DNA from: Faecalibacterium sp. UBA1819
GTDB taxonomy: Bacteria; Bacillota; Clostridia; Oscillospirales; Ruminococcaceae
DNA length: 64,000 nt
Assembly: GCA_002315015.1 (NCBI GenBank)
Contig: DCEX01000003.1
Location: 3,824 to 67,823, forward strand
Reading direction: 5' to 3'
Part shown: positions 62,468 to 64,000 of the stretch, one piece after another
Position numbering within the stretch: the first letter of the stretch is position 1
Layout: each line of letters begins with the position of its first letter
Notes under the pieces: generated by a model
What the model was told of the DNA's origin: nothing
What the model saw: only the letters and a program-made list of their open reading frames with translations
Database searches by the model: none
Made by a program: the position numbers and the translations under genes

Positions 62468-62660
62468 TACAATAACCCCCTTCAAAAATACAATCTAGAA
62501 TAGTGTCGCATTTTTGTGAAAAAATAATCACATCTGTTTTTATTATATCGCTTTTTTCAAAAAATGAAAGCAAAAAGCATAAAGGAATTGTAAAAATTTG
62601 CTGCTTTCGCCAATTCCTTGACAGTCGCTGTGCCGCTTTGGACCGATATGAGACGCATGG

Positions 62661-62689
62661 TTGCATCCTTTCTATTTTCAGAGTACAAT
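62661..62689 (+). promoter_or_regulatory. Promoter of the CARF-nuclease gene
   Basis: TTGCAT, a 17-base spacer and TACAAT, about 60 bases before the ATG. Confidence 0.6.
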
Positions 62690-62751
62690 AAAGACAGAAA
62701 GAACCGGTAACGCATCATCCCAGAAAATTAGAACACAAAGGGGGCAGCTCC

Positions 62752-63942
62752 ATGCGCCAGCCAATTAAAACCTTGATTGAGCTGTATGATAAACAGCCGA
62801 TGGAAAACATTTTGGGGGCTTGTATTTTTTCGCCTGCCATGGTGGTTTATGTTTGTGATGCGCGCGATTCCAGCCTGCGCAAAGAAATGGCGGTTGAGCG
62901 CCTGTTTAAAAGCCGAAAAATGAAAACGAAGGCGCGGTTTTATTATATTGATACCTGCGACCCGCAAATGATTTGGAACACCTTTGATGCCATTGTTCAC
63001 GACTACCCCAATTGTGTGTTTGACTGCACAGGCGGAAAAGATTTGGTGCTGTTGCAGGCGGGGCTTTACTGCCGCGAAAAAAATATTCCCACTTATTACA
63101 TCGACCCGATACGCGGAAAGTTTGTCAACGTAATTGGCTGTGATTATCTGCGCGATTATTACGCCATGCCCCAGCTGTCTGCCGAGGATCTGCTGGCCAT
63201 TGCCGGCGCTCGTTTGATCGGCTATGGCCATTACGAGCCGGAAGCACTCACCGAAGATTTTGAACAGGATGTCTTTCGGATTTGGCCGGTTGTGTGCCGC
63301 AATCCCGGCGCTTGGGGAAAGCTGGTGGCCTTTTTCCAAGCGGTATCCGGCGGCGCAGAAAACCAGCTGGTCATGGATGCACCCCATGCGGTTTATGTCA
63401 ACCGCCAATCCACCGTCTATTACCAGCCGGCTCTTTTGCATGAGCTGGAGGAGCTTGGCATTTTGTCTGATTTGCAGATTATGTCACATCGCGTTCGGTT
63501 CACCTATAAAAACACCATGATTAAAAATTGTTTGCAGAATCACGGCATTTGGCTGGAGCTTTACGCCTATTACAGCGCGCTTCAATGCGGCTGCTATGAC
63601 GATGTGCGAACCAGTGTTATTGTTGATTGGGACAACGCCAGAGGCACCGACCGCTCGACACGCAACGAGATTGATGTGCTGATGGTGCGCGGGATTCAAT
63701 CGGTATTCGTTTCTTGTAAAATGGGCGCCCCCACGCCCTTGGCGCTTTCGGAAATTAAAATTCTAAGCCAAAAATTCGGCGGCGAAAATACAAAAACCGT
63801 TGTTTTAACGGCGGCTGACGTATATGAACGCGACCGCTCGCTGCTCCAGCGTGCGCGCGACCTCGACATTATTCTAATTGACCGAAGCACCCTGAAAAAG
63901 GGCGATCTATCCCGCCGCTTTCAATCGCTGCTTCTTTTATAA
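62752..63942 (+). CDS. CARF-domain nuclease of the Card1/Can2 (DUF1887) type
   Basis: Card1/Can2 proteins sense cyclic tetra-adenylate through a CARF domain and then cut nucleic acid. This 396-residue protein has a CARF-like Rossmann domain (~1-165; TLIELYDKQPMENIL, the loop DCTGGKDLV at ~88-96), a winged-helix linker (~180-260) and a PD-(D/E)xK domain (~265-396) with GIWLELYAYY, TRNEIDVLMV and FVSCKMG. Two points are odd: the ligand loop, TGGTK in relatives, is TGGKD, and the E-x-K of the nuclease is S-C-K. ATG follows GGGGGC. It has its own promoter, and no cas gene lies in the window. Confidence 0.78.
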   Translation: MRQPIKTLIELYDKQPMENILGACIFSPAMVVYVCDARDSSLRKEMAVERLFKSRKMKTKARFYYIDTCDPQMIWNTFDAIVHDYPNCVFDCTGGKDLVLLQAGLYCREKNIPTYYIDPIRGKFVNVIGCDYLRDYYAMPQLSAEDLLAIAGARLIGYGHYEPEALTEDFEQDVFRIWPVVCRNPGAWGKLVAFFQAVSGGAENQLVMDAPHAVYVNRQSTVYYQPALLHELEELGILSDLQIMSHRVRFTYKNTMIKNCLQNHGIWLELYAYYSALQCGCYDDVRTSVIVDWDNARGTDRSTRNEIDVLMVRGIQSVFVSCKMGAPTPLALSEIKILSQKFGGENTKTVVLTAADVYERDRSLLQRARDLDIILIDRSTLKKGDLSRRFQSLLLL

Positions 63943-64000
63943 CGCAGCTGTCAAAGTTCTATCTGCCACACACAAAAAGAGACTGTCGAAAAACTGCCGC

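Follow-up and report, generated by a model that had tools for sequence, protein, structure and literature searches.

The 396-residue protein encoded near the right-hand end of the window, the 64,000-nucleotide stretch of Faecalibacterium sp. UBA1819 analysed here (GenBank assembly GCA_002315015.1, contig DCEX01000003.1), combines a CARF ligand domain with a PD-(D/E)xK nuclease domain, and our findings are best read as a CRISPR-independent nuclease from a branch whose ligand may be SAM-AMP or another nucleotide of similar positive charge. A sequence-only reading had described an altered ligand loop and nuclease motif outside any visible CRISPR locus, had offered two interpretations, either a type III effector encoded at a distance from its locus or a divergent branch sensing another nucleotide outside CRISPR, and had proposed alignment with Card1, Can2 and VC1899 and a comparison of neighbours across genomes. 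The observation is confirmed in part and the interpretation supported in part, as detailed below.

The gene is real and intact. A ribosome-binding-like GGGGG stands upstream of its ATG in the intergenic region listed in Table 1, and comparison with the gene of the sister genome, Candidatus Ruthenibacterium merdavium (L004; 89% identity), gives a dN of 0.068 at saturated dS, a ratio of about 0.03, and hence strong purifying selection. A decaying gene was ruled out by this ratio, with its saturated dS, together with stop-free matches in 14 of 14 carrier genomes. As the sequence-only reading had it, the single predicted chain has a CARF front and a PD-(D/E)xK back, which the Pfam match and the fold comparison bear out, and by these predictions the protein belongs to the DUF1887 (CARF4--PD-(D/E)xK) superfamily alongside Card1, Can2 and VC1899, with VC1899 the closest by predicted fold. 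The VIA alignments to chains that consist of, or begin with, a CARF domain stop near residue 130, and an NCBIfam search with the protein gave no lead. At the contig end, GAGACTGTCGAAAAACTG (window positions 63979-63996) resembles by eye an insertion-sequence end and may be the cause of the assembly break; no second copy of it was found within the window.

Table 1. Features of the CARF nuclease gene and its upstream region (positions in the window)
Feature	Positions	Strand	Basis
Divergent intergenic region shared with the transporter gene	62486..62751	.	sequence
CARF--PD-(D/E)xK orphan nuclease gene, 396 aa	62752..63942	+	
CARF domain, about residues 5-160 (boundary approximate)	62764..63231	+	VIA alignments, secondary structure
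E10 to D13; D13 at the place of Can2 Ser19	62779..62790	+	HMM alignment, conservation
D36, at the place of Can2 Thr42 / VC1899 Asp34	62857..62859	+	alignment, conservation
D91-C-TGGKD loop; D97 where Can2 has Lys99	63022..63042	+	alignment, conservation
PD-(D/E)xK nuclease domain, about residues 255-396	63514..63939	+	Pfam 264-382
E269, helix glutamate, invariant in S-type	63556..63558	+	conservation
N305-E306-I-D308, strand of the catalytic aspartate	63664..63675	+	alignment, conservation
S321-C322-K323 where relatives have E-C-K	63712..63720	+	alignment, pattern test
E334, helix glutamate, proposed substitute for the E of E-x-K	63751..63753	+	alignment, pattern test

In a profile alignment to solved structures, S321-C-K323 falls on the E-C-K of VC1899 and Card1, and E334 falls on a lysine (L-Y-K-L in VC1899 and Card1, I-Y-K-I in Can2); the E-x-K of the Can2/Card1 nuclease strand is absent from the window protein. 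For a test of the motif pattern, 200 distinct sequences were compared; 199 of them were parsed, the exception being L099, which has SCS. An acid at 334 or 331 occurs in all 164 S-type sequences and in none of the 35 E-type sequences, which carry K or R at 334 throughout; 147 of the S-type members have E334 and the other 17 have K334 with E331, one turn earlier. These 164 sequences are related and hence not 164 independent events, and no exception was seen among them. E269, E306, D308 and K323 are likewise invariant in 164 of 164. As judged from this conservation, the S-C-K is a lineage signature coupled to the helix acid and not damage: the altered motif noted earlier stands insofar as SCK replaces ECK, but not as a sign of a damaged site, given the conserved acid in the next helix. 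At the sequence level an acid after the lysine takes the place of the E of E-x-K, and because the serine is accompanied by this conserved helix acid, the site is probably permuted rather than broken. The permutation PD...K...D/E, first seen in Cfr10I, is described in PMC6344858, and its reference list includes a Cfr10I redesign whose title stresses spatial over sequence conservation. The CCGG-family restriction enzymes, such as Cfr10I, share with the window protein the permuted PD...K...D/E order with the acid after the lysine (PMC6344858), but they are sequence-specific DNA cutters without a CARF domain, and the likeness of the active sites is likely convergent.

The ligand pocket, too, departs from that of the relatives. 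The cA4 contacts that Can2 has in common with Can1 are Ser19, Thr42, Lys99 and Tyr118, of which Ser19, Lys99 and Tyr118 contact phosphates and Thr42 an adenine, according to PMC7969007. By alignment, the window protein has D13, D36, D97 and Y116 at these places, so that Y116 alone of the Can2-type contact set is kept. The E-type sequences mostly have S13 (31/35), N91 (32/35), K97 (31/35) and Y116 (31/35); the S-type sequences mostly have E10 (150/164), D13 (132/164), D91 (150/164) and D or E at 97 (141/164), but a few members of the window clade lack an acid at 97. The altered TGGKD loop of the sequence-only reading is thus upheld and extends to several pocket positions, and the alignment with Card1, Can2 and VC1899 that it had proposed sets D97 at the place of Can2 Lys99 as it sets S321-C-K323 on E-C-K. 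This pattern indicates that the cA4 pocket is charge-reversed in the window branch, Ser/Asn/Lys at 13, 91 and 97 having become mostly Asp/Asp/Asp-or-Glu, and that the change would be a lineage signature, not damage; positions 10 and 91 would face the ligand. Because the pocket is missing residues that contact the cA4 phosphates and has acids in their place, a cyclic oligoadenylate is an improbable ligand and a locally cationic nucleotide a probable one. SAM-AMP or a relative heads the candidates, since those acid-pocket members that were seen within type III loci all belong to Cmr loci of the SAM-AMP class. A further group of S-type nucleases (L199, L086-L088, L090) has a CARF loop without the TGG motif (e.g. 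DLSNG), with no strong Cas10 match in their genomes, and perhaps binds yet another ligand.

Eight S-type members are located within type III loci or close to one, three with a basic loop and five with an acid loop. The basic-loop members L083, L085 and L089 have T36, T96, K97 and Y116; the link is loosest for L089, whose Cas10 is about 18 kb away. By PADLOC, the company of the basic-loop members is CARF-RelE (L121) and Csx1/CARF-HEPN (L122, L123), effectors defined as cA4-activated in PMC11229360, which also concludes that one locus tends to use one messenger; CorA had no match in the scanned stretches L121, L122 and L123. The acid-loop members all lie in Cmr operons (L057 in L065, L082 in L120, and those of L164, L231 and L232). 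In the Cas10s of these five loci and of L162, L208 and L209 (8/8), the D of an [HS]DR motif and the E of an LE/AE motif align with residues 70 (D) and 151 (E) of the type III-B Cas10 in PDB 9lq5_B, from its residue numbering apparently a B. fragilis protein. The cA4-type Cmr Cas10 of L121, the one basic-loop comparison, has by eye LPNRF at the place of D70. By this alignment, the Cas10s of the five acid-loop loci bear the SAM-AMP signature, D70 and E151. PADLOC finds CorA in L065, L120, L231 and L209, thus in three of the five acid-loop loci (L065, L120, L231), and the CARF gene of L120, like that of L231, is the direct neighbour of the CorA gene on one strand, with 11-15 bp between the two. 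No CorA match was found in L232 (16-kb contig) or in L164 (25-kb contig, beginning just upstream of cas6), and in both the CARF nuclease is the only effector candidate seen on the contig.

L231 and L232 were found after the SAM-AMP idea had formed, in a search of 189 genomes of the order of G543 that returned 12 genomes: G543, the carriers of L231 and L232, G971 (fragments only, L233) and eight weak matches, of which the three that were read (L234-L236) are long E-type proteins. Long proteins of this kind (L055, L234, L235, L236; about 870-1320 aa) end in an E-type Card1-like nuclease, and L235 and L236 have by eye a kinase-like N-terminal part. The genome G734 holds a D70-type Cmr locus with a DxET protein (L208, G734:C45) and, on another contig, an acid-pocket CARF nuclease of the window clade (L171, G734:C28), with no CorA match within 17 kb of the Cmr locus; this nuclease is a possible effector in trans, and a type III effector away from its locus may thus exist in this relative. 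The DxET-motif proteins of the Cmr loci have 175-197 aa, and searches with those of the loci other than L162 gave no library or PDB match; their 'DEDD' label rests on motif, position and the description of such loci in PMC10600005.

The association of acid loops with SAM-AMP-class loci (5/5, against 0/3 for basic loops) gives p = 1/56 when calculated by hand with kinship ignored, and p = 1/10 when counted by lineage as three acid lines versus two basic lines. In the tree, built after removal of near-copies and fragments, L082, L231 and L232 form one clade and L057 and L164 stand apart; since three of the five acid loci are thus one lineage, the association rests on three lineages, and the basic-loop type III members need two lines. 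Long branches meet in this tree, which leaves the positions of L082, L085 and L089 uncertain, and the E-type protein L055 is placed among the S-type sequences, probably in error. Among the five acid-loop members, position 13 is D or S and position 116 is K, E, R or M. As background, CorA is given for 53 of 1113 type III loci in PMC11229360; a search of our phylum sample found two clear CorA matches in 398 genomes (G543 and G327); and of the 11 family-sample genomes whose palm2 match exceeds 50 bits, D70-type Cas10 occurs in two, G178 and G082 (L065, L209), the remaining Cas10s (L118, L119, L207, L210-L215) being Csm-type or other in look. Counter-cases exist in both directions, as G082 and G327 have a SAM-AMP-class Cmr with CorA and no match to the CARF profile, and G028 and G179 carry a CARF gene of the window clade with a Csm-type Cas10 on another contig.

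The window gene itself lies outside any type III locus seen, its own right flank being cut by the contig end, and no Cas10 palm match was found in its assembly (97.6% completeness). A type III locus just past the right contig end was dismissed, since the sister locus has ordinary genes: in L004 the CARF gene has a transporter gene on one side and, on the other, the gene of a 596-aa protein that matches nothing in Pfam, after which come genes for a periplasmic-binding protein, a histidine kinase and a response regulator, and no cas genes were seen in the ORF list within 10 kb on either side. The claim of a gene outside a visible CRISPR locus therefore holds, the stored type III effector finds no support in the window genome, and the stronger support goes to the other alternative, that of a divergent branch which responds to a different nucleotide and does so outside CRISPR. 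Elsewhere in the window genome (G000:C21; L117:455-4842), the Cas1 gene (306 aa) adjoins that of a 1168-aa protein in which HNH and RuvC_III domains are found; we read this protein as Cas9 and the locus as type II. Type II CRISPR systems are not known to make a nucleotide messenger.

Matches to the CARF gene occur in 6 of 11 genomes of the genus, in 14 of 61 relatives, in 24 of 197 genomes of the family sample (G146 and G222 only partial, in long frames) and, with profile A2, in 48 of 394 of the order sample. Among 68 genomes with a member of the window clade or an order-level match, the weak or long-frame carriers G631, G892, G949 and G957 having been left out, a strong Cas10 match (>60 bits) is present in six (G028, G178, G179 and G543 of 30; G734 and G854 of 38); eight further genomes with other S-type members add G373, G245 and G490. 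Weaker palm2 matches (about 20-38 bits) were taken for GGDEF-type proteins, because an E. coli control also gives matches. When 74 stretches were scanned against our own set of type III proteins, 65 had a CARF ORF; L020, L022, L068, L075, L162 (obtained for CorA), L176, L177, L189 and L196 had none after greedy ORF choice and were not counted. L065, L120, L121 and L122 had been picked for Cas10, and in the other 61, which include the very long L201 and L202, type III genes occur in one, L164. Most members of the acid-pocket branch are thus orphans. A constant defence partner was rejected, the shared neighbours being an AI-2E transporter and, by eye, a sigma/anti-sigma pair. In three genomes (L023, L024, L066) the CARF gene has next to it, in divergent orientation, a sigma-factor-like gene together with that gene's neighbour. 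Phage or plasmid cargo was also rejected, as phage records gave no match and plasmids one weak match covering 41% of the query, in Aeromonas media; the gene there (NZ_CP047963.1, 74055-74558) is annotated as a DUF1887 family CARF protein.

Of the known systems, VC1899 of Vibrio cholerae (PDB 1xmx; 18% identity) is a DUF1887 orphan that, like the window protein, lies outside type III CRISPR and has Asp at the Ser19 and Thr42 places (Asp9, Asp34); unlike it, VC1899 has an E-type site, E-C-K with the helix lysine, and Arg96 where the window protein has D97, so neither its E-x-K nor its basic residue at the Lys99 place is shared. It has weak RNase activity that is not regulated by cA4, as stated in PMC7969007. 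The foremost competitor is an orphan of the VC1899 kind: the acidic pocket would bind a housekeeping metabolite, a metal, a polyamine or nothing, the protein would serve in general stress or turnover, and SAM-AMP-class loci would have recruited such a nuclease for other reasons. The nearest fold, the shared Asp at 13 and 36, the freedom from cA4 control, the ordinary chromosomal neighbours and the near absence of type III genes (1/61 stretches not picked for Cas10) all fit, and we give this account a sizeable minority share of belief; it sits poorly with recruitment into a rare type III class in three separate lines, with an acid instead of an arginine at 97, and with acids kept at 10, 13, 91 and 97 across the branch. 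A cA4-type effector serving a distant type III system in trans seems very improbable, since the Ser19, Thr42 and Lys99 equivalents are all Asp and the window genome has no Cas10 match, although the fold is that of Card1 and Can2 and, in the carriers G028 and G179, a Csm-type Cas10 is encoded on a different contig. Can2 and Card1, which are cA4-activated, do share the CARF plus PD-(D/E)xK layout and the N-E-x-D strand with the window protein, but differ in their E-x-K site, Ser/Thr/Lys pocket and type III loci.

A protein without catalytic activity, confined to the binding of nucleic acid or a ligand, would account for the missing glutamate of E-x-K, yet is improbable in view of the four invariant residues and the helix acid in 164 of 164 S-type sequences, and of L164 and L232, where the nuclease is the sole effector candidate seen on the contig. 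Little weight also falls on a DNA repair or RNA processing nuclease without a ligand switch: a long-standing chromosomal gene under strong purifying selection, syntenic with the transporter gene in the genus, would suit such a role, but the presence is patchy (6/11 in the genus, 24/197 in the family sample) and a conserved CARF domain is retained.

Based on these findings, we propose that the window protein, a member of the DUF1887 superfamily, may work on its own as a homodimeric nuclease that a ligand switches on. A small nucleotide would bind at the CARF dimer interface, upon which the nuclease cleft would open, as described for Can2, and nucleic acid would be cut with relaxed specificity in a metal-dependent manner at the permuted site formed by E269, D308, K323 and E334; the most likely outcome would be an alarm-triggered defence or dormancy step. 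The dimer, the nuclease activity, the active-site geometry, the ligand and the defence role are all inferred, and the whole explanation, a stand-alone ligand-activated nuclease with a permuted site and a SAM-AMP-like ligand, is held tentatively, at slightly under an even chance. CorA, the SAM-AMP effector of type III-B (PMC10600005), belongs to the same Cmr class as the five type III-linked relatives, but is a membrane protein with neither CARF nor nuclease, and a Cmr locus with D70/E151-type Cas10 accompanies those five relatives and not the window gene. For the acid-pocket branch, a SAM-AMP-type ligand is quite possible, if on balance rather less than evenly probable; for the window gene, whose genome has no known SAM-AMP source because it has no Cas10 match, it is somewhat less probable. 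That the branch switched from cyclic oligoadenylate to the linear, locally cationic SAM-AMP, and that its CARF receptors serve type III-B loci as nuclease effectors which accompany or replace CorA, is a proposal that we would expect to fail more readily than to hold.

Orphan DUF1887 proteins are already in print, VC1899 among them (PMC7969007). In a literature search of partial coverage, where absence is weak evidence, we found no publication joining CARF nucleases to SAM-AMP, and a search for a permuted site returned none. Scans keyed to E-x-K would label probably working nucleases of the DUF1887 superfamily as inactive. A soluble CARF nuclease reading SAM-AMP would add a second effector class to the pathway, would show a change of CARF ligand class by charge reversal, and would be a simple test protein. 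The genomes of most branch members, like that of the window gene, lack a Cas10 match, and the SAM-AMP reading, if true, would therefore point to SAM-AMP-like signalling outside CRISPR; the orphan members pose the question of whether gut bacteria of this group have a CRISPR-free source of such a nucleotide.
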